From an uncultured Prevotellaceae bacterium (GTDB taxonomy: Bacteria; Bacteroidota; Bacteroidia; Bacteroidales; Bacteroidaceae): a DNA stretch of 64,000 nt. This document shows, in pieces, positions 5,319 through 61,374 of the stretch; position 1 is the first letter of the stretch, and each line of letters begins with the position of its first letter. Below the pieces are notes generated by a model. That model saw only the letters and a list, made by a program, of their open reading frames with translations, had not been told where the DNA came from and made no database searches. The stretch is from the NCBI GenBank assembly GCA_902790625.1, contig CADASP010000005.1, positions 1 to 64,000 of the forward strand, written 5' to 3'. The translations under genes were made by a program, and so were the position numbers.

Positions 5319-5343
5319 GTCGGTCTCTCTTTTTATTCTGTTT

Positions 5344-25792: not shown

Positions 25793-28336
25793 TCAGTCGC
25801 CGCCGCCCGTCTTGGCGTAGTTCGATGGTGTTGCCCCGAACTCCTCTTGGAAACAGCGTGTGAAATAGGACGCATTCTGGAATCCTGTGAGATACATCAC
25901 CTCCTTGGTGGAGAAGCTCTCTTTGCTGGCGAGCAGGCGTGCCGCCTTCTGCAGCCGCAGGTGGCGTATGTAGGCCACGGCCGTTCTGCCCGTGAGCTGC
26001 TTGATTTTGCGATAGAGCTGCTTGGTGCCGATGCCGCTGAGCTGGCTGAGCATGTCGACAGAGAGGTCGGAGTTGTCGATGTTCTCCTCGATGATATGGG
26101 TGATGCGCAGGAGCAGCTGGTCGTCTTGCGACAGCTGGGTGTCGTCGCCAGAGGCAGCGAGCATCGAGAGCCTCAGCTCCTGCTCGAGCATGGCCTTGTC
26201 TTCGCTGAGCTGCTCCTCCTTGCTTCTGGCGTTCTGCAATATCAGTTCCTTCTCCCGTCGCTCCCTTCGCAGGATGCGACGGCTCCTGACGTATAGGCCT
26301 ACGAGCGCCAGCAGCACCATCACGAGCAGCACATAGAGCGTCCAAGCCAGTCGCGAGCGGTACCAAGGCGGCGTGATGCGGAAGTGGAGGCTGTAGGCAT
26401 CATTGTGCTGCCGTGCGTCGCTCAGGTAGAGGGTGTAGCTGCCAGGCTGCAGCCCCGAGAGCAACAGCGTGCTGCTGCCCACGGGCAGCTGCACCCACTC
26501 CTCTTGCAGACCCTCCACGCGGAAGGCGAAGTGGGACGCCTTCTCTGTGCCATATTCATAATCGCTCAGATAGAACAGCAGACAGTTCTGCGCCTCGCTC
26601 AGCAGCAGGTGGCGCCGGTGCAGCTGCAGGGCATCGCAATAGCCCTGCCCCATCACCTCGACATTGGTCACCACGGGCGTGGCAGCTTGCTGCTGGCTGC
26701 GCAGGGAGTCGGCCCTGACGGCGGCAAACTTGTCGATGCCGCCCAGCCATACGGTCTGGCTCGCTGGATGATAGTAGACGGAGGTGTAGCTGTCGGCGGT
26801 GCTGAAGCTTGTCAGCACCTGCTGGCGTGCATCGGTGATGCACAGGCCCTCGTCGGTGACGCGCCACGTGCCGCTGGGTGTCGCGGCCGAGAGCCCCTGC
26901 GGCGTATAGGGCTGTGCGTTCTCGCGCTGCAGCACTGCCACCAGCCCGTCGGCGGCGATGTGGTCGGGGCTGACGGTATAGGTAGCCTGGTAGGTGGTCA
27001 CACGCAGCTTGCCGTCGGTCGTCTCCTGTATGTCGTACACCCAGTTGCGACGGTCGCCATCGATGTGCAGCGGCCTGAACTGGTGCGACCTGCGGTCGTA
27101 GAGCAGCAGGGCACCGTCGATGCCCACCCACAGTCTGCGCGCCGAGTCCTCGAACATGCAGCGTATGCTGTTGTGGGGGATGGGCCACTGCTTGTCGTTC
27201 ATCTTGTACCATCGGCAGCTCTGATGGTCGGTGTCCAGACCCTCCACGGCTATAAGCCCATGTATGCCGCCCAGCCATAGCGTAGAGTCGGAGTCCTGGA
27301 AGATGAACCGCATCTGGTTGCCCTCGCGCGAGGCTGTGATGGCAGGCAGGGGGTAGGTGTGGAGGAAGAGGCTGCGCGGCGACATCGACACGCCGTTGGA
27401 TGTGCCCACCCAGAGGTTGCCTCCAACATCGCTGCAAAGCGTCCACACCACGTTGCTTGCTATCGTCTTGGCATCGTTGAGCGCATCGTGGCTCAGGTGC
27501 CACAGCCGTTGGCGACGGTCCATCACGTACAGCCCGTCGTCGGTGCCCGCCAAGATATTGCCTTCAGCATCGCAAGCCAGACATTTCACAATGGGCAGGT
27601 CGAACTGCAGCCTGCCCTGCTCCAACTGTTCCAGGGTGCCCAGGCCTACGTCGGTGCCCACCCAGAGGGTGCTGTCGGAGGGTTGCCAGAGCAATGCCGA
27701 GATGACCGACGAAGAAGCCCTGGCTCCCTCGCCGGGGAGGAGGGTGTGCAGCACGTGCAGGCGACCGGTGGGTATGGAGTAGCACGACAGGCCGCTCTGC
27801 TGACCCACATATAGCAGCGAGTCGCCCACGGCGGCCAGCGCGCACACGTTCTCCACTTCTTTCAGACGCACGTAGCGCCCGTTGCAGAAGAGTCCGCGGC
27901 TGGTGCCTGCCCATACGTCAGTGCCCACCTGAACCAGACAGCGCACGTCAATGTCATCGTAGAGACTGTCGCGCTGGAAGCTGCGGGTGTTCAGATTGAA
28001 CTGAAGCAGACCATGCTCGTGGCCCACTAAGATGCTGCCACCGACTACCAAAGCGCAACGGGGCGACCCCATGTCGGACTGCTCAGGATGCGTATAGCGG
28101 TGCAGGTTATAGCCATCCCATGCCGAGAGTGCTTTCTTGTCGACGAACCACATCATGCCACTACTGTCCTGAACGATGGCCTTCACGACCAGCGTCTGCG
28201 TTTCGCTCTTCAGGTTGCTGAACGACTGATAGCGCAGCGGCGGCAACGTGGCAGCTTTGCCGGTGGTGGCCAATGTCAAGAGTAGCACGAAGGCGATTCT
28301 GGCAAAAGACCTATTTCGCTGTATGTACATTTTCAC
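25793..28336 (-). CDS. Membrane-spanning propeller/AraC regulator without a kinase domain
   Basis: 847 residues from a GTG at 28336; the ATG at 28330 (MYIQRNRSF) is as likely. It has a signal peptide, a two-component-regulator propeller region (about 40-560, with repeats such as LWVGTDVGLGTLEQ and LWVGTSNGVSM), a Y_Y_Y domain (about 590-655), one membrane segment (about 662-683), a charged coiled coil, and an AraC-type double helix-turn-helix (about 743-845). Hybrid two-component systems with this sensor carry a histidine kinase and receiver between membrane and HTH. Both are absent, so glycan binding outside would have to act directly on the DNA-binding end. It is divergent from, and probably controls, the carbohydrate genes starting at 28535. 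Confidence 0.9.
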   Translation of the reverse strand: MKMYIQRNRSFARIAFVLLLTLATTGKAATLPPLRYQSFSNLKSETQTLVVKAIVQDSSGMMWFVDKKALSAWDGYNLHRYTHPEQSDMGSPRCALVVGGSILVGHEHGLLQFNLNTRSFQRDSLYDDIDVRCLVQVGTDVWAGTSRGLFCNGRYVRLKEVENVCALAAVGDSLLYVGQQSGLSCYSIPTGRLHVLHTLLPGEGARASSSVISALLWQPSDSTLWVGTDVGLGTLEQLEQGRLQFDLPIVKCLACDAEGNILAGTDDGLYVMDRRQRLWHLSHDALNDAKTIASNVVWTLCSDVGGNLWVGTSNGVSMSPRSLFLHTYPLPAITASREGNQMRFIFQDSDSTLWLGGIHGLIAVEGLDTDHQSCRWYKMNDKQWPIPHNSIRCMFEDSARRLWVGIDGALLLYDRRSHQFRPLHIDGDRRNWVYDIQETTDGKLRVTTYQATYTVSPDHIAADGLVAVLQRENAQPYTPQGLSAATPSGTWRVTDEGLCITDARQQVLTSFSTADSYTSVYYHPASQTVWLGGIDKFAAVRADSLRSQQQAATPVVTNVEVMGQGYCDALQLHRRHLLLSEAQNCLLFYLSDYEYGTEKASHFAFRVEGLQEEWVQLPVGSSTLLLSGLQPGSYTLYLSDARQHNDAYSLHFRITPPWYRSRLAWTLYVLLVMVLLALVGLYVRSRRILRRERREKELILQNARSKEEQLSEDKAMLEQELRLSMLAASGDDTQLSQDDQLLLRITHIIEENIDNSDLSVDMLSQLSGIGTKQLYRKIKQLTGRTAVAYIRHLRLQKAARLLASKESFSTKEVMYLTGFQNASYFTRCFQEEFGATPSNYAKTGGGD

Positions 28337-28534: not shown

Positions 28535-29275
28535 ATGAAAAAAATGAGACTCTTACTGATTGCCCTGTCGCTACTGGCAGGTAGTGCTAACATGCGAGCC
28601 GACATCGTGGACTTCGGAAGCGATTCGCAGACGGAATGGAACGCCACGGCCGATGATGGCTGCGACATGGGGTCGACCGTTACCCTCGACGGCGTTAAAG
28701 TGACGCTGGGCTCGCCCGACGATGCTGGTGTCACTTGGACATGGCATGCAGGCAACGCTGGCTTGCTGCCCTCGCAGATGCCATCGACCGATGGTACCGC
28801 CGAGACGCTTATCACCGAATTCTCGGAAGAAGCACCCTCCGGCAACCTGCCGTCTCACGGCGCTTTCCTGAAGATTGAGCCCACCAAGGCAGGCACCATC
28901 ACCATCAGCGGCAAGGCCTCGGCCAATGCAGCTCAGCCGTTGGTGTTTGTCACGCTGAGCAAGGAAGACCCCACCGTCATCCTCTCGGCACAAATCACAC
29001 CATGGGACAATAGCGTGACGCAGTGGAGCTACGACGTGGATGCCGACCATGTGTATTGCTTCTTCCAGCTAAGCTATCCCGGCAAGCTCACTGCCTATCG
29101 CATCACCCTTCGCGGCATCTCTTTCGCCGATAACAATGTGTCAACAGGCCTGAACAAGCTTCATGCAGCCCCCGCAGCTGATGATGCCTCCTTCTTCGAC
29201 CTCAGCGGCCGTCGTGCCAACGACAAGAGCGGCATCCGCATTGTCAACGGCAGGAAGTTCTACTTCAAAAAGTAA
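28535..29275 (+). CDS. Secreted single-module protein of an unrecognised ~175-residue family
   Basis: 246 residues from the ATG at 28535; upstream in-frame codons do not resemble a signal peptide. A signal peptide is cleaved near ANMRA. Residues ~24-198 form the module that recurs twice in the next gene and once in the GH115 protein. Its landmarks are IVDFGS, ATADDGCDMGST, GVKVTLGSPDDA, HAGNAGLLPSQMPSTDGT, GKASANAAQPLVFVT, ITPWDNSVT and YPGKLTAYR. The pattern of alternating strands with conserved Trp and Tyr suggests a beta-sandwich carbohydrate-binding module, but I do not recognise it. The C-terminus (FDLSGRRAND..GIRIVNGRKFYFKK) resembles the short sorting tails of Bacteroidetes secreted proteins. 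It is the first gene of the locus and is divergent from the regulator. Confidence 0.8.
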   Translation: MKKMRLLLIALSLLAGSANMRADIVDFGSDSQTEWNATADDGCDMGSTVTLDGVKVTLGSPDDAGVTWTWHAGNAGLLPSQMPSTDGTAETLITEFSEEAPSGNLPSHGAFLKIEPTKAGTITISGKASANAAQPLVFVTLSKEDPTVILSAQITPWDNSVTQWSYDVDADHVYCFFQLSYPGKLTAYRITLRGISFADNNVSTGLNKLHAAPAADDASFFDLSGRRANDKSGIRIVNGRKFYFKK

Positions 29276-29301
29276 TTGAAACCCAACAAATCAACACACT
29301 T

Positions 29302-32300
29302 ATGAGACGCTACAAACTATTACTCATCGCCTTGGCATGGCTCGCTGGCGCTGCCAGCTTGCATGCCGACATCATCCAGTTTGGCAGTCTGGAAGACACC
29401 GAATGGACCGCCACGGCCGACGATGGCTGCAGCAACGGCTCAACCATCGTGCTCGACGGTGTAGTCGTCACCATCGGTTCAGCAGAAGACGCTGAGGTCA
29501 GCTGGTCGTGGAACGCCAAAAACGCTGGTCTGATACCCACGCAGATGCCATCGACCGAAGGCACCGTCGAGTCGCTCATCACGTCGTTCTCCGATGTTGA
29601 GCCTTTCGGCGAGCTGCCCACCCATGGTGCCTTCTTCAAGATTCAGCCCAGCCGCCCCGGTAACATCACGTTCCGCGGAAAGGCATCGGCCAACGCAGCA
29701 CAGCCGCTGATCTTCGTCACCTGCTACAAGGACAACCCCACCATTATCGAGGCCAACATCACGCCATGGGACAACAGCGTCACCGAGTGGACCTACGAAG
29801 TGGACACCGAGCACGACTATTACTTCTTCCAGCAGTCGTATCCCGGTCAGCTCACCGCCTACCGCTTCACATTCCGTGGCGTGGCCTTCGAGGCTACGGG
29901 CGAAGCTCCTCCACCCGTCGACCAGCGCAACGTGGGTTTCCTCTACAATGGTGACCTGAGCGCTGACCTGGCCTACAAAGTGATTACCCGTGACAGAAGC
30001 AACAAAGTGACACCCATCGAGGCCAACAAGGCTTTCACCGTGGAAGACTTTGCCGACTATGAGGTCATCACCGTCAGCTCCACCGTGACTAACGACGTGG
30101 CCATCGCCTCGCTGAAGGAGGTGCATCCCTACCTGCCCATGCTCAACCTGAACCCCCTGATTTACGAGAAGTGGGGCTATGGCGAGGTGGTCGACGCTGG
30201 CATTCAGTTTGCCACGACCCGCAACCCCAACCATCCCCTGTTCAGGAACCTGCCGCTCATCGAAGACCCCGATGCCGAAGAGCCCACCTACGTGCTGGAG
30301 GTCAGCACCTACTCGTCGTTCCCCGGCTTGCACCTGAGCGGAATCTTTGCCAACGACCCCATCCTGGCAGTAGCCTACGACAACGAGGATGTGGTGGCCA
30401 TCCACAGCCATAACCTCTCGCGCAACGGCTATCTCTACATCCCCTACACACAGGAGACGCTGGCGGATGCCGTCACTCCCGAGATTATCACCTACGCCAT
30501 CGCCATCATGAACGGCACGAAGCAGCCTGCCACAAAGGCTCCGCTGCCCACCTTCGCGCTGGAGTACGACTATCAGCAGACCATCGTCAGCATTGCCGAT
30601 GCTGCCCCAGAAGCAGAGATTTTCTACACCCTCGACGGCACCACGCCCACCGAGGCGAGCACCCGCTACACAGGCCCCTTCACCGTGAGCGAAGAGACGA
30701 CCGTGATGGCCGTGGCGCGTGGCGAAGGCTATCTGCTGAGTGATGTGGCTGAGCGCTACATCGACATCCGGCTGGTGTGCCCACCGCCCACGTTCAGCAT
30801 GGAGCGCCTCGACGGGCAGACCGTCGTCACCATCAGCTCCGACCTCGACGGTGCCAGCATCTACTACAACTACAAGGGCGACAATACTGCGGGGAGGAGC
30901 ACCCTGTACACGGGGCCTATCACCCTCACCAGCGGCCGCACCATCTATGCCTTCCAGACCTGTCCCGACTATCTCAACTCAAGGGTGGGCTCGGCCGAGG
31001 TCGTGGTGACGAATCCGCGTGTGCGCGTCGACATCTTGTCGAAGATGGATGCCAACCAGGAAGAGTACTACAGCCAGACCAATCCTGACACGCAGACAGG
31101 CAACGCCGGCTACTACTTCTCGTGGGGAAGCACCGCCATGGACAACGTGGGCCAAGAAGAGGTGGTAGACTTCGGCAATGGCTGGAGCGTCCGCTCGCGT
31201 GGGCAGCGCATCGCCTGGGAGAACGTCACCCCGGCCTTCAACTATGGCGACGACGCCAGCGGTTCGTTCAACCCGATGACCGTCGAGGACGAAGATGCCT
31301 ATCTGCCCGTCAGCAGCGGCCTGATCGACCTCCACGACTGGAACACACAGCATCCTGCCAATGCCATGATACAGAGCACGCAGGCCTTTGCCGGTCCCTT
31401 CGACGTGGTGGCCTATATGGTCAACGAGAATGGCAACATCGGCTTTGGCGACACGTCGGTGTCGGAATGGGCTGCCACATCGGCCGACGGCTGCAACAAT
31501 GGCTCCACCATCACCCTCAACGGTGTCGTCGTGACGCTGGGCTCGCCCGACGATGCTGACGTCACATGGTCGTGGCATGCAGGCAACGCTGGCTTGCTGC
31601 CCACGCAGATGCCATCCACCGACGGCACTGCCGAGACGCTCATCACCGAATTCTCCGAGGAGGAGCCTTTTGGAACCCTTCCCACCCACGGTGCATTCTT
31701 CAAGATTGAACCCACGAAGGCGGGCGTCATCACCATCAAGGGCAAGGCCTCGGCCAGCGCCGACCAGCCATTGGTGTTCGTCACGCTCGACAAGAACAAC
31801 CCGACGAGCATCCTTGCCGCCTCTATCACGCCTTGGGACAACAGCGTCACGGAGTGGAGCTATGAGGTCGATGCCGACCATGCCTACATCTTCTTCCAGC
31901 TGGCATATCCCGAAAAGCTCAATGCCTATCGCTTCACCCTTCGCGGCTTTACCTTCGAGGCCTTCGAGGGCGGCTCAGGCGAATCAGTCGTCGCGCCCTC
32001 GGCCGAACTGGCTGCACGTCTGGTGGTGGAAGTTGCAGCCAGCAATGGCGCTGGTGCTGAGTGGACACAGATAGGCGAGCCTATCGCATTGCCCGACGCG
32101 CGCCGACTCTACTGCAAGGTCGTGCGCAGCTACGAAGGTGCCACGCCCGTCTTCGTTCGCACACGCATCGTCAACGACGTTCCCCGTGCCGGCATCTTCA
32201 ACATCTACCTCGCCTACGAGGGTGAAGAGTCAAAGCGCATCATCCAGGAGCAGAGCACCGGCATCAGCAACGTACAGCCATCGGTCGTCCTCCCCGCTGG

Positions 32301-32400
32301 CATCTACAGCATCAGCGGCACTCGCCAGAACGAGATGCGTCGCGGATTGAACATTATCGTGTCGCAAGATGGCAGCGTCAAGAAGGTATATGTGAAATAA
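29302..32400 (+). CDS. Large secreted protein with two copies of the new module and CHB_HEX_C-like repeats
   Basis: 1032 residues with a signal peptide. Order: new module copy 1 (about 24-198); an alpha/beta segment (about 205-410) with VGFLYNGDLS, EVITVSSTVTND and PEIITYAIAIMNG that recalls GATase/ThuA-like folds; two CHB_HEX_C-like beta-sandwiches (FYTLDGTTPTEASTRYTGPF at ~440 and IYYNYKGDNTAGRSTLYTGP at ~515); a linker with YYFSWGSTAMDNVG; new module copy 2 (about 712-888); and a C-terminal tail ending MRRGLNIIVSQDG, like a sorting signal. No catalytic motif was found. It is probably a surface glycan-binding scaffold. It starts 26 bases after the previous gene. Confidence 0.8.
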   Translation: MRRYKLLLIALAWLAGAASLHADIIQFGSLEDTEWTATADDGCSNGSTIVLDGVVVTIGSAEDAEVSWSWNAKNAGLIPTQMPSTEGTVESLITSFSDVEPFGELPTHGAFFKIQPSRPGNITFRGKASANAAQPLIFVTCYKDNPTIIEANITPWDNSVTEWTYEVDTEHDYYFFQQSYPGQLTAYRFTFRGVAFEATGEAPPPVDQRNVGFLYNGDLSADLAYKVITRDRSNKVTPIEANKAFTVEDFADYEVITVSSTVTNDVAIASLKEVHPYLPMLNLNPLIYEKWGYGEVVDAGIQFATTRNPNHPLFRNLPLIEDPDAEEPTYVLEVSTYSSFPGLHLSGIFANDPILAVAYDNEDVVAIHSHNLSRNGYLYIPYTQETLADAVTPEIITYAIAIMNGTKQPATKAPLPTFALEYDYQQTIVSIADAAPEAEIFYTLDGTTPTEASTRYTGPFTVSEETTVMAVARGEGYLLSDVAERYIDIRLVCPPPTFSMERLDGQTVVTISSDLDGASIYYNYKGDNTAGRSTLYTGPITLTSGRTIYAFQTCPDYLNSRVGSAEVVVTNPRVRVDILSKMDANQEEYYSQTNPDTQTGNAGYYFSWGSTAMDNVGQEEVVDFGNGWSVRSRGQRIAWENVTPAFNYGDDASGSFNPMTVEDEDAYLPVSSGLIDLHDWNTQHPANAMIQSTQAFAGPFDVVAYMVNENGNIGFGDTSVSEWAATSADGCNNGSTITLNGVVVTLGSPDDADVTWSWHAGNAGLLPTQMPSTDGTAETLITEFSEEEPFGTLPTHGAFFKIEPTKAGVITIKGKASASADQPLVFVTLDKNNPTSILAASITPWDNSVTEWSYEVDADHAYIFFQLAYPEKLNAYRFTLRGFTFEAFEGGSGESVVAPSAELAARLVVEVAASNGAGAEWTQIGEPIALPDARRLYCKVVRSYEGATPVFVRTRIVNDVPRAGIFNIYLAYEGEESKRIIQEQSTGISNVQPSVVLPAGIYSISGTRQNEMRRGLNIIVSQDGSVKKVYVK

Positions 32401-32465
32401 CCAACACCACCCCCAGCCCCTCCCCCTACCCTCCCTTGGGGGGGGGCGGAGGTGAGAGGTGAGAA
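32401..32465. repeat. C/G-rich repeat plus GAGGTGAGAAGTGAG words before the GH115 gene
   Basis: A CCACCCCCAGCCCC tract is followed by a long G-run and then GAGGTGAGAGGTGAGAAGTG words that end about 9 bases before the ATG at 32475. It is the same kind of filler seen at other gene borders in the window. Confidence 0.55.
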
Positions 32466-32474
32466 GTGAGAGCA

Positions 32475-35400
32475 ATGAAACCAATCAGACTTTTTCTTTT
32501 TGCGCTGTCGGTGCTTGCCAGTTCCACCGCACTGTTTGCTGCCATTGTTCAGTTTGGCAGCACCTCGCAGACAGCGTGGACGGCCACCGCTGCCGATGGC
32601 TGCGACATGGGTTCCACCGTCACTCTCCACGGGGTTAAGGTGACGCTGGGTGCTGCCTCCGATGTCGGCAACAACTGGGCATGGCATGCTGGCAACGCTG
32701 GTTTGCTGCCCTCGCAGATGCCATCCACCGGCGGCACGGCAGAAACCCTGATTACCACGTTCGCCGAAGCAGCTCCCTTCGGCACCTTGCCCACCCGAGG
32801 CTGTTTTCTAAAGATAGAGCCAAGCGTTGCGGGCACAGTGACCATCAGCGGCAAGCCCTCGGCCAATGTCGCACAGCCGCTGGTCTTCGCAACGGTCAGC
32901 AAGGATGCCCCCGAAACCATCCTCGCTGCGAAGGTGGCACCCTACAACGCTTCTGCCACATCGTGGAGCTACGACATCGATGACGACCACATCTACTATT
33001 TCTTCCAGCTCAGCTATCCCGGAAAGCTCAATGGCTACCGCTTCACACTGCGTGCGTTAGCCTTCGAGCAGCCGTCGGCTCCGCTGCCCGCCGTCTATTA
33101 TGAGCTGCTGGCCGAGATAGAGCAGGCGCAACTGCTGATGGGTCGCTCGCACGAAGCCGTCAGAGCGGCTCAGGCAGCGCTCGACGATGAGAACGGAACT
33201 GCTGAGAGCTATGCAGCAGCATTGGCCGCCCTGAAGGCAGCCGAGCAAGCCCACATCAGCTACCTGCAATCGCTCCCCATAGGCGAAGGGTTCCCCATCG
33301 TGGGTGGCCCCATCGTGGCCGACATCGTGACGGATGCCACCAACGACCATCCCGTGGTGGGTGTGGCTGCCAAGGCCCTGGCAGCCGACATCCGCCTCGT
33401 CACCGGGCGCAAGCCTGAAGTGAAGCCAACGGCGGCAGCACTGCGCTACCCCATCATCATCGGCACGCTCGGACGGTCGGCCATCGTCGACCAACTCGCG
33501 AATAGCGGAAAAGTGGACTGCTCGGCCATCGAGGGGAAGTGGGAGGCCTACACCCTGCAATATGTCGAGAACATCGGCGACAGCATCCCCCGCGCCCTGG
33601 TCGTAGCTGGGAGCACGCCCCGCGGCACGGCCTACGGTGTGTTCCATCTGTCGCGCCTCATCGGTGTGTCGCCCTGGGTGTGGTGGGCCGATGTCGTTCC
33701 CGCTCATCACGACCAACTCTACTTCACGGCTGCCGACAACTTTGCGTCGAAGGAGCCTTCTGTTCGCTTCCGCGGAATATTCATCAACGACGAAGACTGG
33801 GGGCTGCAGCCCTGGGCCAGCGCCAAGATGGACACCAACATCCACAACATCGGCCCACGCACCTACGAGCGTGTCTTCGAGCTGCTGCTGCGCCTGCGTG
33901 CCAACATCCTGTGGCCGGCCATGCACAAGGTGAGCCGAGCCTTCTGGACCATCGACGAGAATCCCCAGCTGGCCGCCCAGTACGACATCGTGCTGGGATC
34001 GAGCCACTGCGAGCCGATGCTGCGCAACAACGTGGGCGAGTGGACCGCCAGCGGGTCATCCTACAACTATGCCACCAACAGGACTGCCGTGCAGCAGTAC
34101 TGGCGCACCAGGGTTGAAGAGTCGAAAGACCAGGACGTGATGTACACCCTGGGCATGCGCGGCGTACACGACGGGGGCATACAGGGCTACAGCGGTGCCG
34201 CCAACATCGCCGCCGGACTACAGGAGATCATCGCCTTCCAACGCAGCCTCATCCACGACATCGTCAACGAAGACGTGACGCAGGTGCCGCAGACCTTCAT
34301 CCCCTACAAAGAGGTGCTCGATGCCTACAACACGGGCATGAACGTGCCCGACGACGTCACCCTCACATGGGTCGACGACAATCATGGATTCATCCGACAG
34401 ATGCCCACCGATGCCGAGCAGCAGCGGGCGGGCAGTCATGGCATCTACTACCATCTGTCCTACTACGGCGCGCCCCAAGACTATCTGTGGCTCTCCAGCA
34501 TAGGCCCCGCGCAAATCAGCTACGAGCTCACCCGAGGCTACGAGCAGGGTATTCAGCGGCTGTGGATCATCAACGTGGGCGACATCAAGCCTGCCGAGGC
34601 AGAGTTGCAGTTCTGCATGGACCTGGCGTGGGACATCGATGCCTGGAACCCCGCGAACGCCAACCAATGGAACCGCCACTGGGCAGCCGAGACCTTTGGC
34701 GAAGAGGTGGCCGACACCCTGGCCGAAGTGAAGAAAGAATACTACAGACTGGCGGCGGGCGGCAAGCCTGAGCACGTGATGTTCGTCGACTACAGCAACG
34801 AGGAGATGGAAGCCCGGCTCGCGGCCTACAGCGCCATCGCCAAGCAGGTCGAAGCCATGAAGCCGAGCATCCGCCCAGAGCTTGGCGATGCCTATTTCCA
34901 GCTCATTGAATATCCCGTGAAGGGAGCCTACCTGATGAACGTGAAGCACCTGAGGGCCGTGCAGAGCATGGGCGAGGCACGCTTGGGCCACGCCGCGCTG
35001 GCACTGCAGTATGCCGACGAGGCCAGGGAGGCCTACAACGAGATACAACGGCTGACGACCATCTACAACAAGAACATTGCCCACGGCAAATGGGACGGCA
35101 TCATGAGCGCATCGCCACGCAGCCAACCAGCATTCCAGATGCCCACGGTGGCCACCCAGGCCACCATCAGCCCCGTGGAGAGCATGTCGTCGGCCGACAG
35201 CCGGACCACCATTGCCGCCAGCACCTATGTGGCAGCCAGCAGCACGCTGCGCAAGCTGCAGGGGCTGGGCATGCAGCACGAGGCCGTCGCCGTATGGCCC
35301 ATGGACATGAAGGCATACACCCGAGCTGCCGATGCGCCCTATGCCGAATACGTGCTGCCCGTGAAGGCTGGCGAGAATGTCATCACCCTGCGCCTGCTGC

Positions 35401-36377
35401 CCACCTTCCCCGTGCATGCCGGAGGCACGCTGCGCTATGCCACAGAGCTGCTCGGAGAGGATGCCGCACCGCAGGTGTTCAGCATTGCCACTTATGCCAA
35501 CGCCAGCGCCTGGAAGCAGAACGTGCTGCGCGGATGGGCAACGGGCAAGAGCATCGCCTACACAGCGGCCGAAGCAGGCGAGGTGAAGCTGCGCATCTAC
35601 TTCATGGATCCCGGACTGGCTTTGCAGGAGATGACCATCGACCAGCCCAATGGGAACAGCCTCACCGACCGGTACATCGTCAATGCCGACTTTGAGCTGG
35701 CCGCCGAGGGTGTGGTGAACACGGGGGGCGGCACGGTGAGAGGCGTGCCATACGGATGGCAGACCAACCAGGAGTTCCCCGGAAACTCGAAGGGCATCAA
35801 CGGCACGGGGGCCAACATGCACGGCTCCAACTCGTGCTGGTTCTGGAACAAGCCCATGCCTACCGACTTTGAACTCTTCCAGACCATCAAGAACCTCCCT
35901 GCTGGCAGCTACAGGCTGACATGCCGACTGGGAGCCAAGAAAGACTGCATAGGCACCCTGAGGCTGTTTGCGGGCAACAATGTGGCGTATTTCGGTGCTC
36001 AGGCCGACTACAAGGCAAGCGTCTTCAAAGCCGACGAGAACAACAGCTTTGCCGGACATGTGGGGACAAGCGACTACAACACGCTGCAGAACATGACGGT
36101 GGATTTCACCACAACAGCCGACGGCGACGTAAGCATCGGCATACGCACCAGCAACCAACGCCCCGACGGCACGTACGACACCAGCGGCGAGACAGGCACA
36201 TTCCGCGTTGACTATTTCCAGCTCTATGCCTTGGGCACTGCCAACAAGATATCTGCCTCCACTACCCAGAGCGACAGCCAAGGCGGCACGGCCTACGACT
36301 TGTCGGGACGCATAACGGCAGCAAACAGCCCCGGCCAAATCATCATTCGCAACGGCCGAAAGCTTATCAACAAATAA
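32475..36377 (+). CDS. GH115 alpha-glucuronidase with an N-terminal copy of the new module
   Basis: 1300 residues from the ATG at 32475 (MKPIRLFLFALSVLASS). Residues ~19-195 are a divergent copy of the unrecognised module and ~200-262 an Ala-rich helical stretch. The GH115 core runs from ~275 to ~1000: VVAGSTPRGTAYGVFHLSRL, RFRGIFINDEDWGLQPWA, LLRLRANILWPAMHKVSRAF, LGMRGVHDGGIQG and WVDDNHGFIRQMP. GH115 enzymes remove (4-O-methyl-)glucuronic acid from glucuronoxylan, and some act on other plant polymers. After a linker, ~1095-1245 form a galactose-binding-like domain, then a C-terminal tail (YDLSGRITA). It is probably secreted or surface bound. It lies downstream of the two module-bearing genes and upstream of two esterases. 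Confidence 0.92.
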   Translation: MKPIRLFLFALSVLASSTALFAAIVQFGSTSQTAWTATAADGCDMGSTVTLHGVKVTLGAASDVGNNWAWHAGNAGLLPSQMPSTGGTAETLITTFAEAAPFGTLPTRGCFLKIEPSVAGTVTISGKPSANVAQPLVFATVSKDAPETILAAKVAPYNASATSWSYDIDDDHIYYFFQLSYPGKLNGYRFTLRALAFEQPSAPLPAVYYELLAEIEQAQLLMGRSHEAVRAAQAALDDENGTAESYAAALAALKAAEQAHISYLQSLPIGEGFPIVGGPIVADIVTDATNDHPVVGVAAKALAADIRLVTGRKPEVKPTAAALRYPIIIGTLGRSAIVDQLANSGKVDCSAIEGKWEAYTLQYVENIGDSIPRALVVAGSTPRGTAYGVFHLSRLIGVSPWVWWADVVPAHHDQLYFTAADNFASKEPSVRFRGIFINDEDWGLQPWASAKMDTNIHNIGPRTYERVFELLLRLRANILWPAMHKVSRAFWTIDENPQLAAQYDIVLGSSHCEPMLRNNVGEWTASGSSYNYATNRTAVQQYWRTRVEESKDQDVMYTLGMRGVHDGGIQGYSGAANIAAGLQEIIAFQRSLIHDIVNEDVTQVPQTFIPYKEVLDAYNTGMNVPDDVTLTWVDDNHGFIRQMPTDAEQQRAGSHGIYYHLSYYGAPQDYLWLSSIGPAQISYELTRGYEQGIQRLWIINVGDIKPAEAELQFCMDLAWDIDAWNPANANQWNRHWAAETFGEEVADTLAEVKKEYYRLAAGGKPEHVMFVDYSNEEMEARLAAYSAIAKQVEAMKPSIRPELGDAYFQLIEYPVKGAYLMNVKHLRAVQSMGEARLGHAALALQYADEAREAYNEIQRLTTIYNKNIAHGKWDGIMSASPRSQPAFQMPTVATQATISPVESMSSADSRTTIAASTYVAASSTLRKLQGLGMQHEAVAVWPMDMKAYTRAADAPYAEYVLPVKAGENVITLRLLPTFPVHAGGTLRYATELLGEDAAPQVFSIATYANASAWKQNVLRGWATGKSIAYTAAEAGEVKLRIYFMDPGLALQEMTIDQPNGNSLTDRYIVNADFELAAEGVVNTGGGTVRGVPYGWQTNQEFPGNSKGINGTGANMHGSNSCWFWNKPMPTDFELFQTIKNLPAGSYRLTCRLGAKKDCIGTLRLFAGNNVAYFGAQADYKASVFKADENNSFAGHVGTSDYNTLQNMTVDFTTTADGDVSIGIRTSNQRPDGTYDTSGETGTFRVDYFQLYALGTANKISASTTQSDSQGGTAYDLSGRITAANSPGQIIIRNGRKLINK

Positions 36378-36433: not shown

Positions 36434-37834
36434 ATGACAATGAAACGCATTTTTCTCCTGCTGGCTGTATCCCTGCTGGGCAGCCACAGTCTCAAGGCCC
36501 AAGATTCGCTGTGGATGCACGTCACCGCCCAACGGGCCATCCGCATGCCCATTGAAGGCCTCGACAGCATCACCTTCTGCTCCACCAGCACGAGCGACGA
36601 TGCCATCTTCACCAGTGCTGAAGAGCTGGCCCACCTCTCTGGCAAGATTGAAGGATTCACGCAGTCGGTGGGCGACATCACCGCTTCGGCTTATGGCACC
36701 GCCGACATGACGGCTGGCAAATGCTATATCACCAAGAACGAAGGGGCTGTGGGCACACCCGTAGAAACCAACAACACGGGCAACTACCTGTCGCTGAAGA
36801 TAGCCGTCGAGAAAGGCGACGTCATCGAAATCAGCACCGTGGGGGCCGACTGGGGACGGGCTTACTTCGTGACCAATGCTGCCAATCAGATTATCGACGT
36901 GGCAGAGAAGCGCACCGACATGGCGCATCCCCAGACCTACGTCTTCCGCATAGCTGATGAGCAGGCTGCCAATCTGATGGTGAACTACAACAAAAGCGAA
37001 TACACCCTGTCGGAGAACATCTGGGTAAGACAATACCGTGGCATGAGCGACCTGTTTGCATCGATGTTCTTGAGCGGGCATCTCGCAGCCACCACCACCA
37101 CGCCGACCGTCGCCGCTGCCGACGCCTCGCTGCAAGGGCTGCGCATCTTCAACATCGGCAACTCTGTGGCCTATGGGGCCAACTCATCGCCCAAGGGCTT
37201 CGCATACGCCGACATGGTGGCCCAGCTGCTGGGAGGCAGCGTCGTGGACTACAGCCACAGCGGCGACCAGCTGCCCACCATCCTGCAACAGATGGAGCGG
37301 GGCATCAACGACAAGATCGCCTGTGATGTCATCTTCATCGAAGGCGGACTCAACGACATGTGTGGAGCCACCGAGGAGACAGGTGCCAACGGCAGCGTGG
37401 CCTACACGCCCGCCCAGTTCGAGACCTACGGCATTGGCCTCGGCACCTTCGACCCCTACGACTATGCTGTCCCCTCGGCTGCCAACCGAACATTTACCGG
37501 ATACGTTGAGCGCATCATGTATCTGGCCAAGACCAAGTTCCCGCAGGCCGTGCCCTACTGGATACTCACCCACCGCACGAGCTACAGGAATGCGCAGCTG
37601 CAGGACATCTGCTACAACCGCATCATCGAGTGTGCACGCAAATGGAACGTCGTCGTCGTCGACCTCTTCCACGAAGGAGTCCTCAATGCTATGACCCGCG
37701 AACTGGCTCCGCAGGGTGCTACCGACTTCGACAGCGGGCGGGGTGGCACACATCCGCTGCTGCGCGGCTATCAAGACTACTACATTCCGCCCATCATGGA
37801 TGCCCTCAACCGCTATTCACGACGCTATTTCTAA
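36434..37834 (+). CDS. Secreted SGNH-hydrolase esterase with a GNS block I
   Basis: 466 residues; the ATG at 36440 (MKRIFLLL) is an alternative start. A signal peptide is cleaved near SLKAQ. Residues ~25-215 are a beta-rich accessory region. The SGNH domain begins at ~235: IFNIGNSVAYG (Ser244 as nucleophile, with Asn in place of the usual Asp of GDS), GGLND at 304-308 (block III), and GGTHP with His440 (block V). No Asp lies three residues before that His, so a Ser-His dyad is possible. Proteins of this class remove acetyl or other acyl groups from polysaccharides. The 56-base gap before it is filled with CTCACCTCTCACC words. Confidence 0.85.
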   Translation: MTMKRIFLLLAVSLLGSHSLKAQDSLWMHVTAQRAIRMPIEGLDSITFCSTSTSDDAIFTSAEELAHLSGKIEGFTQSVGDITASAYGTADMTAGKCYITKNEGAVGTPVETNNTGNYLSLKIAVEKGDVIEISTVGADWGRAYFVTNAANQIIDVAEKRTDMAHPQTYVFRIADEQAANLMVNYNKSEYTLSENIWVRQYRGMSDLFASMFLSGHLAATTTTPTVAAADASLQGLRIFNIGNSVAYGANSSPKGFAYADMVAQLLGGSVVDYSHSGDQLPTILQQMERGINDKIACDVIFIEGGLNDMCGATEETGANGSVAYTPAQFETYGIGLGTFDPYDYAVPSAANRTFTGYVERIMYLAKTKFPQAVPYWILTHRTSYRNAQLQDICYNRIIECARKWNVVVVDLFHEGVLNAMTRELAPQGATDFDSGRGGTHPLLRGYQDYYIPPIMDALNRYSRRYF

Positions 37835-37907: not shown

Positions 37908-39332
37908 ATGAAGCATTTCATTCCACTCCTGCTCGCACTGACATTGCTACAGCCGACATGGGCCTACCAAAGCAAGAAAATCTATGTGAACTCCAACGGC
38001 AAGCAGCGCAACATGCTGGTCTACACCCCCGACGAGCTGCCCACGGGCAGCCCCCTCTTCATCGTCACCCACGGCATGGGCGGCAGCTCGGAGAACCAGG
38101 CCAGCCACGACCGGATGTACGAACTCATCGACACCGCCAAGTTCGTACTGGTCTATCCGCGTGCCGACGGCGACTACTGGGACATCAGTGGCAACAGCGA
38201 CCGCGCCTTCATCATCAAGACCATCGACGAGATGGCCGCGCGCTACAACATCAACCGCAACCGCGTCTACTGGTCGGGGTTCTCCATGGGGTCCATGCTC
38301 ATCTTCCACTGCATGCCCACGATGCTCGACAAGATAGCCGCCTTCGCCCCCACCAGCGGCATACAGTTCAGCGAGGAGCCTTGGAACCACTGCCCAAAGA
38401 AAGTGAACGTCATGGAGTGCATAGCCTACAACGACAACGCGTTCAACTACAACAAGTATCACATCCGAGAATACATGGAGCACTTTGCCCAGATGAACCA
38501 GTACACGAAGTACGTGAAGCAGACGGGCTATCACACCAAGAACGGCACGTCGTGGTTCGACGGCGACCGCGAGCTATGGCTCAACGAGGCCACGGGCCAC
38601 GAGGTGGTGCTCTATTCCTACAACTATAGCGGAAAGGGTTCGCATACGCCCGTGGCCGAGAACTCCTACGAGATATGGAACTTCTGCAAGCGCTTCCAGC
38701 TGGGCGACCCCATGATTGTGCCGCCGCCCGTGGTCACTGCCCAAGAGTTCTCGCTCTTGATGAGCAATGCCCAATCCATCTACGACGCTACTGCCGACAC
38801 CATTTACGCTTCGGCCGAACCCCTGCGGGTTGCCCTAAAGACACTGGTAGACGAATATGCCCCGCTATTAGCCGACGAGCTCGACGACTATACGGTCTAT
38901 TCTGAACAGATAGAAGAGGCCACCAAAGCACTGGCAACGCGCAAGACGAATCTCGACAACTACTTTGCCGCCCGCTATCGGGTGAAGAAGCTCATCGACG
39001 ACTATGCCGACAATCCCAACTACAACCAAACGACGCTCTACCTGCGCATGGTGAGCCACTACAGATTCTACGACCTGAATGAAAAGAACATCGTCAAAGA
39101 CGACAAGCTGGTGACAGCGGCCAAGAACCTGAACGACGTTGCCGACAGTTTCCTGACCGAGGTGGCTTCGGGCATGGAGCCAACGACAGCCAGCACTGCC
39201 GCCATGCTGTCGACAGCCTACTACGACCTGCAAGGCCGTCCTATATCCAGACCCACAAGGGGCGGCATCGTCGTGGAGAAGGTCGGCCATGCCGATGGCA
39301 AAGTGAAAGTCAGGAAAATTTATCGAAGATAA
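37908..39332 (+). CDS. Secreted CE1/PHB-depolymerase-like esterase with a C-terminal extension
   Basis: 474 residues with a signal peptide cleaved near TWAYQ. The alpha/beta-hydrolase domain (about 22-265) has the oxyanion HGMGGSSENQ, the nucleophile elbow GFSMGS (Ser126) and a likely catalytic His in GKGSHTPVAEN. The architecture fits feruloyl or acetyl-xylan esterases of the CE1 / PHB-depolymerase group. Residues ~280-435 form a helical extension with no recognised fold. The C-terminus has YYDLQGRPISRPTRGG, similar to sorting tails. Together with GH115 and the SGNH esterase it suggests removal of side groups from a plant cell-wall polymer. Translation starts right after a heptamer array. 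Confidence 0.85.
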   Translation: MKHFIPLLLALTLLQPTWAYQSKKIYVNSNGKQRNMLVYTPDELPTGSPLFIVTHGMGGSSENQASHDRMYELIDTAKFVLVYPRADGDYWDISGNSDRAFIIKTIDEMAARYNINRNRVYWSGFSMGSMLIFHCMPTMLDKIAAFAPTSGIQFSEEPWNHCPKKVNVMECIAYNDNAFNYNKYHIREYMEHFAQMNQYTKYVKQTGYHTKNGTSWFDGDRELWLNEATGHEVVLYSYNYSGKGSHTPVAENSYEIWNFCKRFQLGDPMIVPPPVVTAQEFSLLMSNAQSIYDATADTIYASAEPLRVALKTLVDEYAPLLADELDDYTVYSEQIEEATKALATRKTNLDNYFAARYRVKKLIDDYADNPNYNQTTLYLRMVSHYRFYDLNEKNIVKDDKLVTAAKNLNDVADSFLTEVASGMEPTTASTAAMLSTAYYDLQGRPISRPTRGGIVVEKVGHADGKVKVRKIYRR

Positions 39333-39364: not shown

Positions 39365-39393
39365 CCGCAAACTTGGAAGAAAAAAAACTACTT

Positions 39394-42300
39394 ATGACTA
39401 CAAAACGACTTCTGTTTCTGTTCTGCATCGTAATCATGGCACAGAACGCGCTGGCCCAGCAGCGCATGGATGATGCCTTCCGCCAACCGCCCACCGAGGC
39501 CAAGCCCATCATGATTTGGCAGTGGATGGACGGGCTGGTGAGCGCCGAAGGCATCACCGCCGACCTGGAGGCCTACCAGCAGGCGGGCATCGGCGGGGTG
39601 CAGCAGTTTCTGGTGGGAGGCCCCGTGCAGGTGTCGGTATGCGACTCGGCCAACGCCATCGGCACCGACTCGTGGCGACGGCTGATGCAGCACGCCATCA
39701 GCGAGTGCAGCCGCCTGGGCCTGTCGTTTGGCACCCACAACTGCCCAGGGTGGTCGTCGAGCGCCTTCCCCACGGTGGCACCGAAGTATTCCATGCAGAA
39801 ACTGGTGTGGACGAAGGAGAGCATGCCGAGAAATGGGCTGGTAAGGCTGCCAAAGCAGCCTGAGGTGGATGCGCAGTGGAACTACTACGAAGACATTGCC
39901 GTGCTGGTGATGCCCAACGACAGCCTTGTCAGTCTGGGCGACATCCACGTGTATCGTCCGAGTGAGCTCCCCACCCGCCTCAGAGGCGTGGGCGATGGCT
40001 ACTGCGTGGTTCGCTTTGGCCACACCACCAATGGCAAGACCAACTATGCCACGGCTCCTGTCGGCGGCGTGGGCTTGGAGTGCGACAAGATGAGCCGCGA
40101 GGCCGTGCGCCGCTACTGGGAGGCCTATCCGCAGCAGCTCCTCTCCTTGGCGGGCAGCGAAGCGGGCAAGACGTTCCAGCGGTTGGAGATTGACAGCTAT
40201 GAGGCTGGAGGACAAGAGTGGACGCGAAGGATGCCCGAGGAGTTTGAGCAACGGCGCGGCTACGCCCTGCTGCCATGGCTGCCCACCCTGACGGGACTGG
40301 CCGTGGTAGACAGCCCAGAGGCCACACAGCGAGTGAGGCGCGACTGGCAGGAGACGGTGAGCGACCTCTTTGCCGAGAACTACTATGGCTACATGAGCCA
40401 GCTGGCACATGAGCACGGGCTGAAGCTGCTGGTGCAGCCCTACGGCACTGGCTCGGCCAAGCCCTTCAACCCCATCAACACGCAGAAGATAGTGAGGCAG
40501 GTGGCACCCGACGACCCCATCTGTGCCGAGTTCTGGGCGAAGCCCGACAACTGGGGGTGGAAGGACGTGCCACGGGTGGCCAGCGCCGCCTACAGCGTGG
40601 GCCATGAAGAGGTGTGGGCCGAGGGGTTCACCTGCTGGCCGCTGCACGCCTGGCAGGACGACCCCGCAGCGCTGAAGACCACCGCCGACCGCGCCTTCTG
40701 CTTAGGCGTGAACCGCGTGATGCTGCATGCCGCCGCACAGAACCCGTGGCCACAGGCCAAGCCCGGCATGACCTTCGGGATATGGGGCACGTGGTGGACG
40801 CCGGGACAGACGTGGTGGCGCGACGGCGCCACGGCGCTGTTCGCATACATCGCCCGCTGCCAGTCGCTGCTGCAGCGAGGCAGCTATGTAGATAACTTCC
40901 AGAGCAGGGAGCGCTCGATGAAGACCGACGACGAGCGCGTGCAGTGGATACACCGACGCGACAACGGAGCCGACATCTATTTCATTGCCAACACCAACGA
41001 CAGTACGCTCGAAGCCACACTGACCATCAACGACGCGGGCGGCAGGGTGCCAGAGACGTGGGATGCCGACACGGGCGAGATGGCGAAGGCTGATGCTTGG
41101 ACTGCGGCAGACGGAAAGACGAAGGTGAAGCTACGTCTGACAGCACACCAGTCGCTGTTCCTCGTGTTCAGAGAGCGAGCCACCGAGGCCCCCTCCACTC
41201 TGGCCCTGCATGAACCCGTAGTGGCCGAAAGCATACCCGTCAACAAAGCATGGACGGTGAAGTTCTCCGACGCCAAGCAGGTGGAGTGGCAGCAGCTGAT
41301 GCCGTGGAATGAGTCGGCCGACCACGACATCAAGTATTTCTCGGGCACAGCCCGCTACACGCAGCACCTCTGCCTCAGCGAGGTGGACCGCCACTACCGC
41401 TATGTGCTCGACCTGGGCGAGGTGAAGAATATGGCCGTGGTCCGTGTGAACGGGCTGACGGTGGGCACGCTGTGGCACCCGCCCTTCAGCATCGACATCA
41501 GCGACGCGCTGCTGGGTGGCGACAACACACTGGAGATCGACGTCACCAACCTATGGGTGAACCGCATGGTGGGCGACGAGCTGGAACCCGACGACGTGGA
41601 GTGGTCGGAGCCCGTCGGCTTCGGCGCTGCCCAGAGCAGCCCAGGCATCGGCCGCGCCATGAAGCGCGTGCCGGAGTGGCTCAGCAAGGGGCTGCCCCGA
41701 CCATCAAGGGGCCGCAAAGCCATCGTGTCGTTCAAGTTCTTCAACAAGGACACACCGCTGCTCCGTTCGGGCATGATGGGTCCCGTGGTGCTGACGAAGC
41801 AGCTGCAGGGCACTGCGTGCAGCTGCCCCTCGGTGGAGCAGGAACTGCGCATCAAGCATGGCGGCAAAAACATCTATGGCGTGCTGAGCACTCCCGTCGA
41901 CGGCAGGAGGCGCCACCCCATCGTCATCTACTCGCATGGCTTCAACGGCACCCATCACCACGGGCGCAGCTATTTCAAGATGCTCCGCGAGATAGGCTAT
42001 ATGTGCTACACCTTCGACTTCCCCTGTGGCAGCACGAAGAGCCGCTCCGACAACAACACCATCAACATGTCGGTGCTCGACGAGCAGAAGGCATTAGAGG
42101 CCGTCGTGGACTACTTCAAGAAGCGCCCCGACGTAGACAAGGACAACATCGTGCTCGTGGGTGGCAGCCAGGGAGGACTCGTCGCGGCCCTCACCGCCGC
42201 CAGCATGAAGAGAGACATCAGGCGGATGGTGCTGGAGTTTCCCGCCCTGTGCATTCCTGACAACTGGAGCCAAACTTATCCGCAGACAGCATCGATACCC

Positions 42301-43836
42301 GACACCACAAAGGTGTGGCAGGTGCCCATCGGCCGACGCTTCTTCATGGAGCTGCGCAGCATCGACGTGGCGAAGGCCGTGGAAGCCTACCGCCGACCCG
42401 TGCTCATCATTCATGGCGATGCCGACAACGTGGTGCCCATCAGCTACTCGCGCCGCGCAGCAGCGCGTTACAACGACGCCCGGCTGATGGAGATACCGGG
42501 GGCGGGGCACGGCTTCAACCAGCGCGACTTCGACAAAGCGCTGAAGCGCATCAGGCAGTTCCTGACGGGCGAAGACATGCGGAAGCGCCAGGCCATCATC
42601 AACGGCGTGCCCTGGTACGACCAGAACGGCAACGTGGTGAATGCCCACGGCGCGGGCATCACCTACGACCATGGGCGCTACTGGCTGTTTGGCGAATACA
42701 AGGCCGACACCACCAATGCCTTCCCCGGCTTCGCCTGCTACTCGTCGGCCGACCTCACCTCCTGGCAATTTGAGCGCGTGGTGCTGCCAGTGCAGACTGG
42801 CGGCATACTGGGTCCCCGCCGCGTGGGAGAGCGGGTGAAGGTGATGAAATGCCCCAAGACGGGCCAATACGTCATGCTGATGCATGCCGATGCCCTGGAC
42901 TATGGCGACCCCTATATCGGCATTGCCACTTCGCCCACCATCAATGGCGACTATCAGCTCAGGGGGGCGCTCACCTATCAGGGCAAGCCCATCAAGCGCT
43001 GGGACATGGGCGTGTTTCAGGACGACGACGGGAAGGGCTATCTGCTCATCCACCATGGGCCCATCTACCGCCTCAGCGACGACTACCTCGCCGTCGACAC
43101 GCTCGTGGCACAAGTGAAGGGCATGGGCGAGTCGCCAGCCATGTTCAAGAAGGACGGCATCTACTATCTGCTGACATCCAACACCACGAGCTGGGAGCGC
43201 AACGACAACTACTATTTCACCGCCCCCTCGCCATCAGGGCCATGGACACGCCAGGGCACATTCTGCCCTGAGGCGACGCTGACATGGAACTCGCAGACCA
43301 CATTCGTGCTGACGCTGCCCGACGGCACACCGATGTATATGGGCGACCGCTGGAGCTATCCCCGCCAGGCCTCGGCTGCCACCTACGTATGGCTACCCAT
43401 GCAGGCGCAGGGCACACGGCTCGCCATACCCCACTACTGGAATGCCTGGGACGTGCAGACCACAAGCCCCGTAGACCTGCTGGCGAGCGGCAAGAGAGTG
43501 GACGTCAACTTCTCGTCGAACACACCGGGCGAGAAAGCCGTGATACCATTCCGGGGCAAAAGAATCATCGTCATTGGCGAGGCCAACGCCCATGGAGGCT
43601 ATGCCCAGCTCACCATACAGCGACGCGACGGCACAACAGTGCGCCAAGCACTCATCGACTGCTATGCCAAGGCACCCGACGTGGGGGTGCGCTATGCCAG
43701 CCCCATACTGCCAGAGGGCAGATACCTGCTGCAGATAGAAGTGACGGGCGACAGGGGCAACTGGACCGACAAGCGACACAACCGCTACGGAGCCGACGAC
43801 TGCTACGTCAACGTGGCAGCTGTCTGTTATGAATGA
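39394..43836 (+). CDS. Trimodular enzyme: GH106-like, alpha/beta-hydrolase, GH43-like
   Basis: 1480 residues from the ATG at 39394, which opens the signal peptide MTTKRLLFLFCIVIMAQ; a TTG 21 bases earlier is less likely. Residues ~22-800 resemble GH106 alpha-L-rhamnosidases: IWQWMDGLVSAEGI and DLEAYQQAGIGGVQQF, FGTHNCPGWSSS, and a C-terminal beta-sandwich VRVNGLTVGTLWHPPF. Residues ~815-1064 are a complete alpha/beta-hydrolase: YSHGFNGTH, nucleophile GGSQGG (Ser925), IIHGDADNVVP and GAGHGF. Residues ~1066-1480 are a five-bladed GH43-type propeller: NAHGAGITYDHGRYWLFGEY, KRWDMGVFQDDDGKGYLL and MGESPAMFKKDGIYYLLTS, closest in feel to the exo-beta-1,3-galactanase branch. No stop or frameshift separates the parts. 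Three activities in one exported chain imply coordinated attack on a rhamnose- and acyl-decorated glycan. Confidence 0.85.
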   Translation: MTTKRLLFLFCIVIMAQNALAQQRMDDAFRQPPTEAKPIMIWQWMDGLVSAEGITADLEAYQQAGIGGVQQFLVGGPVQVSVCDSANAIGTDSWRRLMQHAISECSRLGLSFGTHNCPGWSSSAFPTVAPKYSMQKLVWTKESMPRNGLVRLPKQPEVDAQWNYYEDIAVLVMPNDSLVSLGDIHVYRPSELPTRLRGVGDGYCVVRFGHTTNGKTNYATAPVGGVGLECDKMSREAVRRYWEAYPQQLLSLAGSEAGKTFQRLEIDSYEAGGQEWTRRMPEEFEQRRGYALLPWLPTLTGLAVVDSPEATQRVRRDWQETVSDLFAENYYGYMSQLAHEHGLKLLVQPYGTGSAKPFNPINTQKIVRQVAPDDPICAEFWAKPDNWGWKDVPRVASAAYSVGHEEVWAEGFTCWPLHAWQDDPAALKTTADRAFCLGVNRVMLHAAAQNPWPQAKPGMTFGIWGTWWTPGQTWWRDGATALFAYIARCQSLLQRGSYVDNFQSRERSMKTDDERVQWIHRRDNGADIYFIANTNDSTLEATLTINDAGGRVPETWDADTGEMAKADAWTAADGKTKVKLRLTAHQSLFLVFRERATEAPSTLALHEPVVAESIPVNKAWTVKFSDAKQVEWQQLMPWNESADHDIKYFSGTARYTQHLCLSEVDRHYRYVLDLGEVKNMAVVRVNGLTVGTLWHPPFSIDISDALLGGDNTLEIDVTNLWVNRMVGDELEPDDVEWSEPVGFGAAQSSPGIGRAMKRVPEWLSKGLPRPSRGRKAIVSFKFFNKDTPLLRSGMMGPVVLTKQLQGTACSCPSVEQELRIKHGGKNIYGVLSTPVDGRRRHPIVIYSHGFNGTHHHGRSYFKMLREIGYMCYTFDFPCGSTKSRSDNNTINMSVLDEQKALEAVVDYFKKRPDVDKDNIVLVGGSQGGLVAALTAASMKRDIRRMVLEFPALCIPDNWSQTYPQTASIPDTTKVWQVPIGRRFFMELRSIDVAKAVEAYRRPVLIIHGDADNVVPISYSRRAAARYNDARLMEIPGAGHGFNQRDFDKALKRIRQFLTGEDMRKRQAIINGVPWYDQNGNVVNAHGAGITYDHGRYWLFGEYKADTTNAFPGFACYSSADLTSWQFERVVLPVQTGGILGPRRVGERVKVMKCPKTGQYVMLMHADALDYGDPYIGIATSPTINGDYQLRGALTYQGKPIKRWDMGVFQDDDGKGYLLIHHGPIYRLSDDYLAVDTLVAQVKGMGESPAMFKKDGIYYLLTSNTTSWERNDNYYFTAPSPSGPWTRQGTFCPEATLTWNSQTTFVLTLPDGTPMYMGDRWSYPRQASAATYVWLPMQAQGTRLAIPHYWNAWDVQTTSPVDLLASGKRVDVNFSSNTPGEKAVIPFRGKRIIVIGEANAHGGYAQLTIQRRDGTTVRQALIDCYAKAPDVGVRYASPILPEGRYLLQIEVTGDRGNWTDKRHNRYGADDCYVNVAAVCYE

Positions 43837-55903: not shown

Positions 55904-55933
55904 TTAGCAACCAGTCATTAGTAATTAGCAATT

Positions 55934-57487: not shown

Positions 57488-57507
57488 ATGAAGAATTTGC
57501 TACCGCA
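57488..57507 (+). repeat. 18-nt word shared with two other post-stop sites
   Basis: GAAGAATTTGCTACCGCA (57490-57507) begins three bases after the susD stop. The identical word follows the WG-protein gene (14028-14045, minus strand), and a one- or two-base variant follows the aspartic protease gene (25297-25314). Confidence 0.7.
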
Positions 57508-57551
57508 TTTGTCTCTTCAATAATGAAATAAACATATAAAAACATACAACA

Positions 57552-60008: not shown

Positions 60009-60048
60009 GGAGATGTGAAGAGTGAAAAGTGAAGAATTTGATATTGAT

Positions 60049-61191: not shown

Positions 61192-61213
61192 CCCAAAGCA
61201 TCCTGTACGCTCA

Positions 61214-61251
61214 AGCACCGTCCTGCTCACCCCAGCAGGATGGTGCTTTTT
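61214..61251 (+). terminator. Intrinsic terminator after the GH16 gene
   Basis: The arms AGCACC-G-TCCTGCT and AGCAGGA-T-GGTGCT pair over 14 positions (one G-U) around CACCCC, followed by TTTTTG. It would end the susC-to-GH16 transcript and separate it from the GH3 gene. Confidence 0.85.
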
Positions 61252-61338
61252 GTATGGCTGCAGGGGCAAACGCCGCCTTTGGTTACAGATTGCATAATAA
61301 AAGATACATCAGAGAAAGGGAGGGCCACCGTTTTTTCG

Positions 61339-61346
61339 TATTTTTG
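61339..61346 (+). promoter_or_regulatory. -7 promoter element for the GH3 gene
   Basis: TATTTTTG fits TAnnTTTG and lies 29 bases before the ATG at 61375, after the terminator. The exo-enzyme gene therefore probably has its own transcript. Confidence 0.5.
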
Positions 61347-61374
61347 CAAAAATTATTTAACTAACACAATCAAC

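Follow-up and report, generated by a model that had tools for sequence, protein, structure and literature searches.

A module of ~175 residues occurs in four copies on three neighbouring secreted proteins of an uncultured Prevotellaceae bacterium, a rumen-type Prevotella (Table 1). A whole-genome search with copy 1 places all of them within the window, i.e. the 64,000-nucleotide stretch of DNA that was analysed (E 8e-118 to 6e-78), and a broadened profile yields no fifth copy in the genome even at E<=5. The number of copies given in the original prediction is confirmed, and its residue positions are borne out to within about 1-5 residues. Pairwise identity among the four copies is 58-76% in protein and 66-77% in DNA. 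Five of the predicted motifs are common to all four copies (DGC[DSN]xGST, VT[LI]G, NAGL[LI]P[ST]QMPST, GK[AP]SA[NS] and YP[GE][KQ]L); the (T/A)PWDNSVT motif, also listed, is worn in copy 4, where it reads APYNASAT. Among 14 close members the aromatic residues W13, W46, W48, W142, Y152, F154, F155 and Y159 (module numbering) are invariant. One copy had been described as the whole of its protein; the 28535 product does contain copy 1 but also a signal peptide (type I-like, without a lipobox) and a 49-residue tail that ends in DLSGRRANDKSGIRIVNGRKFYFKK.

Table 1. Module copies, their host genes and the genes around them in the window
Feature	Position	Strand	Remarks
Module copy 1	28601-29125	+	residues 23-197 of 28535 product; search query
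Module copy 2	29368-29889	+	residues 23-196 of 29302 product; E 6.0e-78, 66% identity to copy 1
Module copy 3	31438-31956	+	residues 713-885 of 29302 product; E 6.8e-88, 76% identity to copy 1
Module copy 4	32544-33065	+	residues 24-197 of GH115 protein; E 6.8e-81, 70% identity to copy 1
Divergent regulator	25793..28336	-	Pfam: Reg_prop propeller, weak Y_Y_Y, AraC-type HTH
Stand-alone module protein, 246 aa	28535..29275	+	ORF; no Pfam/NCBIfam family
Secreted protein, 1032 aa, copies 2 and 3	29302..32400	+	ORF; Pfam PF13290 9.6e-23, PF13287 1.9e-20
GH115 protein, N-terminal copy 4	32475..36377	+	Pfam Glyco_hydro_115 1.2e-127, GH115_C 3.5e-14
GDSL/SGNH esterase, same cluster	36434..37834	+	Pfam Lipase_GDSL_2 2.3e-10
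CE1-like esterase	37908..39332	+	Pfam Abhydrolase_2 2.7e-5; homologue in genome G194 has a module copy (L016)
Multi-catalytic protein	39373..43836	+	Pfam: GH106-like / AXE1-like esterase / GH43

The signal peptides ahead of the three N-terminal copies (1, 2 and 4) are related, a sign that each was probably duplicated as one unit with its module. Copy 3 is placed differently. The 29302 product consists of copy 2, a region without assignment, CHB_HEX_C_1/Fn3_assoc repeats and a C-terminal domain that is split by copy 3. When the flanks of copy 3 are joined without the insert they match, each time in one stretch, a paralogue in the same genome that lacks it (G000:C24, 61% identity, query residues 39-227) and a protein of another genome (G054, 44%), and the host domain is uninterrupted in proteins of many other Prevotella genomes. 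Because the joined flanks match an uninterrupted domain elsewhere, copy 3 is, judged by these alignments, an insertion into the pre-existing C-terminal domain of the 29302 product.

The third host begins at GTG 32466 in the ORF list; its likely start is the ATG at 32475, from which the residues of copy 4 are counted. Its Pfam match makes the GH115 assignment secure, and the predicted fusion of one copy to an alpha-glucuronidase stands with it. GH115 enzymes take (4-O-methyl-)glucuronic acid off xylan and related glycans, and the GH115/esterase cluster therefore looks like a set of enzymes for stripping side chains and ester groups. Adjoining the module cluster, the multi-catalytic protein is an unusual fusion, in a single ORF, of GH106-like, AXE1/BD-FAE-like esterase and GH43 parts. 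By its position the upstream, divergent gene is likely the local regulator of the module cluster; Pfam shows no histidine kinase in it, which sets it apart from a full hybrid two-component system. Promoter and terminator scans gave background level only. Apart from this cluster, a SusC/SusD locus at 52640-63996 has GH16 (BACON) and GH3 genes and would be, by content, a beta-glucan utilisation locus.

Type IX export of the module proteins is plausible, since the genome encodes SprA (2616 bits) and other TIGR04183-type cargo (nine matches above cut-off elsewhere in the genome). A sorting tail of this type on the module proteins themselves was considered and set aside: their tails resemble Prevotella sorting tails, yet TIGR04183 has no match in them at E<=10.

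Conservation of the module cluster

Orthologous clusters with all four copies are present in loci L007, L008, L009 and L010, whereas the cluster in L011 is partial; all of these loci are in MAGs labelled Prevotella or Prevotellaceae. Each of the four copies is under purifying selection: per-copy dN/dS is 0.04-0.25 in the comparison with L008 and 0.10-0.15 in that with L010, values similar to the 0.14-0.18 of the remainder of the 29302 and GH115 proteins. It might be supposed that the module is a ligand-free structural or stability domain that acts as a spacer or beta-sandwich cap and has multiplied by duplication inside the locus, and the nesting of copy 3 within another domain is what such a unit might show, as is the wide occurrence of related modules in long multi-domain surface proteins (see below). 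However, the free-standing secreted copy is kept in all of L007-L011 and is itself constrained (dN/dS 0.09-0.10), and a purely structural role is considered improbable.

A tree of the copies groups copies 2 and 3 strongly by position in every locus. For copy 4 the same is true of four of the five loci, the L010 copy 4 standing elsewhere on a weak branch. This copy (12098-12622) stays apart from the other copies 4 and is nearer to copy 1 (79% versus 66%), and its odd placement may reflect exchange between copies. The same locus has, before the CE1-like esterase and module cluster, a gene for 551 residues (5076-6728) that is also present in L011 and for which no credible Pfam family was found. 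Matches of ~35 residues given by tblastn within the GH115 part of L007-L010 (E 0.09-0.35) are taken as chance.

Family status and the wider Prevotella superfamily

Over the module of the three proteins Pfam-A gives nothing above cut-off (best E 0.02, 15.4 bits versus a cut-off of 25), a scan that covers only those CBM families having a Pfam model; the weak matches to CAF1A_dimeriz, PilN and SusE lie far below cut-off. In NCBIfam nothing matches the module at E<=10. The PDB was searched by sequence, both with single copies and with profiles, and gave no credible match; no relative was found in plasmid records, and literature searches turned up no description of the module. The original prediction recognised no named CBM family, in keeping with the Pfam and NCBIfam searches, and the best explanation is an uncatalogued CBM-like family that has a name in neither collection. 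What the reading of the sequence by itself did not reveal, and the profile comparisons indicate, is membership in a much larger Prevotella superfamily.

The close subfamily, to which the segment NAGLLPSQMPSTxGTxE is peculiar, is rare: a profile of close members only (A2) has strong matches in 6 of the 398 sampled genus genomes, including the window's own. One of its members, in genome G194, is fused C-terminally to a CE1-like esterase that is homologous to the window's 37908 product and adjoins a GH27-type gene. Weak matches in the A2 search led to a much wider group, and profile A3 has matches at E<=1e-3 in 83 of 249 genus genomes, a figure that describes the superfamily and is no independent proof of homology since A3 already includes remote members. 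An independent test is the hhalign comparison of A2 with A6, a profile of remote members only, which gives a probability of 95.7% and E 1e-8, collinear over residues 13-171 and including the VTxG, LPxxGAFxKxEPxxxG and YYxF positions. On the evidence of these profiles the module is one branch of a large and diverse Prevotella beta-sandwich superfamily. The latter looks concentrated in Prevotella, since in 296 phylum genomes the wide profile A5 finds the window's own genome alone at E<=1e-4; this holds notwithstanding one clear member in another family of the same order (L039). TonB-receptor and Ig-like-repeat matches (L040-L042, E about 0.006-0.008) are taken as chance.

A PL1 pectate lyase (L125) and a pectinesterase (L144) are among the hosts of the wide members. 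Many others are large surface proteins that carry BspA-type LRRs, Ig-like domains or dockerin but in which no catalytic domain is recognised, so that an enzyme-targeting role cannot be assumed for every member and the superfamily may serve more generally in adhesion or structure. In one case (L088, G027:C46:58700-60900) four wide-superfamily modules stand in tandem in one 1029-residue open frame.

A protein-protein docking domain, by which neighbouring products would assemble with each other or with a common partner in the manner of dockerins, is another conceivable role. Every copy in the genome is on neighbouring products of one locus, the 28535 product is little more than the module, and the two copies on the 29302 product would permit bridging. 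No partner domain was identified, however, and in L126, L134 and L139 the wide members lie in proteins that have a type I dockerin of their own, so that in these proteins it is not the superfamily that does the docking; moreover, the solved fold closest to the module is that of a carbohydrate-binding domain (see below). Docking is accordingly held to be quite unlikely. That all genome copies sit in one locus of carbohydrate-active enzymes favours the CBM-like reading.

Predicted fold and probable function

A first AlphaFold2 model, built on 14 close relatives only, was poor (pLDDT 57.7), and its PDB matches were set aside when it was superseded by a second model of copy 1 with 43 diverse relatives. 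The second model is a beta-sandwich (pLDDT 80, pTM 0.82) in which residues 51-70 have pLDDT below 50. Its top two Foldseek matches are 8wc1 (E 9.4e-4, prob 1.00) and 8x8h (E 2.5e-3), both annotated as carbohydrate-binding domains, and the same two head the VIA-align 2 list (8x8h, Z 9.1, rmsd 3.6 over 127 residues; 8wc1, Z 8.8, rmsd 3.8 over 129). The next row has Z 7.2, and matches below Z 8 are scattered over many unrelated beta-sandwiches. According to the tool, models that lack a clear match usually reach a best Z of 7-8, so that the fold match, although 8x8h and 8wc1 stand above the next row, gives moderate support for likeness to a solved carbohydrate-binding domain. The check by structure prediction that had been proposed thus points the same way as the prediction, with the reservation that a shared fold alone is no proof of function.

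Invariant residues among the 14 close members are densest at 46-87 (20 of 42, against about a third elsewhere). Because of this density it may be guessed that the poorly modelled segment 46-87 (WxWHxxNxGLxPSQMPSTxGTxExLIT) forms a ligand site; such conservation of a non-core segment exceeds what a spacer would need and also speaks against the structural role considered above.

The module is probably a non-catalytic, CBM-like beta-sandwich that anchors the enzymes of the locus to plant polysaccharide. CBMs typically appear as free-standing, terminal or inserted units, and the module is seen as a free-standing, an N-terminal, a C-terminal and an inserted unit. It is a discrete unit on several carbohydrate-active enzymes: GH115 and CE1-like in the close subfamily, PL1 and pectinesterase in the superfamily. 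The original prediction that it behaves as a CBM gains support from these enzyme fusions together with the beta-sandwich that matches annotated carbohydrate-binding domains. In the proposed scheme the module would hold the GH115 alpha-glucuronidase, the CE1-like and GDSL esterases and the GH43 at the locus substrate, the segment 46-87 would supply the putative ligand site, and the 28535 product would act as a free glycan-binding protein. Glycan binding is the most likely activity, and the likeliest substrate is glucuronoxylan or another glucuronate-bearing plant glycan.

Prevotella is dominant in rumen and fibre-rich human gut communities, and to our knowledge many of its large surface proteins are without any annotated binding domain. 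A superfamily found in roughly one third of the genus genomes sampled, outside Pfam and NCBIfam, would offer a directly testable set of candidate glycan-binding domains, and if its members are glycan binders they would help to predict the targets held by Prevotella surface proteins. It is conceivable, and advanced here tentatively, that the four copies and the superfamily constitute a new and very large Prevotella CBM class, a single fold that would have spread in free-standing, terminal and nested form, the close subfamily serving a glucuronate-bearing plant glycan and others further glycans; if so, annotation has until now missed a considerable part of the means by which rumen and gut Prevotella recognise glycans.

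Comparison with related and similar domains

The unnamed Prevotella modules of the type LPTxGTFYxFxPTxxGTLTV...AGxTYYxFxxGSKLGFYGFxF, e.g. the C-terminal module of the L125 PL1, are homologous to the close family at about 13-25% identity to copy 1, and are likewise nameless in Pfam. CBM4, CBM35, CBM86, CBM15, CBM77 and related families share the general beta-sandwich arrangement at Z 5-6, values also reached by unrelated beta-sandwiches, and a sequence match to them is absent.

Whether the family is new is a separate matter from its function, since the module could belong to a recent CAZy CBM family that has no Pfam model, which would be compatible with the role proposed here. Such families continue to appear, e.g. 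CBM112, new among the Bacteroidota as late as 2026 (PMC13357471), and the closest fold is itself a deposited carbohydrate-binding domain. On the other side, the module and superfamily profiles retrieve by sequence neither 8wc1 nor 8x8h (PDB, E<=10), nor any other PDB chain with a credible match. CBM112, a beta-mannan-binding, intercalated and esterase-linked CBM (PMC13357471), was considered for its architecture; it has about 117 residues and a different conserved site (two tryptophans, QxSxK), unlike the module, and two CBM112-like repeats in L146, recognised by published spacing and architecture and not by a CAZy model, show no similarity to the module (hhalign against A5, probability 0.2%), a result that depends on how well this recognition holds. 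Membership in an existing CAZy family appears rather doubtful. The L146 repeats, of CBM112 spacing, occur in one G054 protein (1-2541) together with a GH5-like catalytic end and a CE7-type esterase. CBM112 does provide a precedent for the nested copy 3, since it is intercalated and has been described from this bacterial group (PMC13357471).

The best structural match to the module model remains 8x8h/8wc1, the carbohydrate binding domain of a putative pectate lyase, at 9-11% sequence identity and Foldseek TM-scores of only 0.37-0.51. Module and match are alike also in broad context, each being a unit on a plant cell-wall enzyme.
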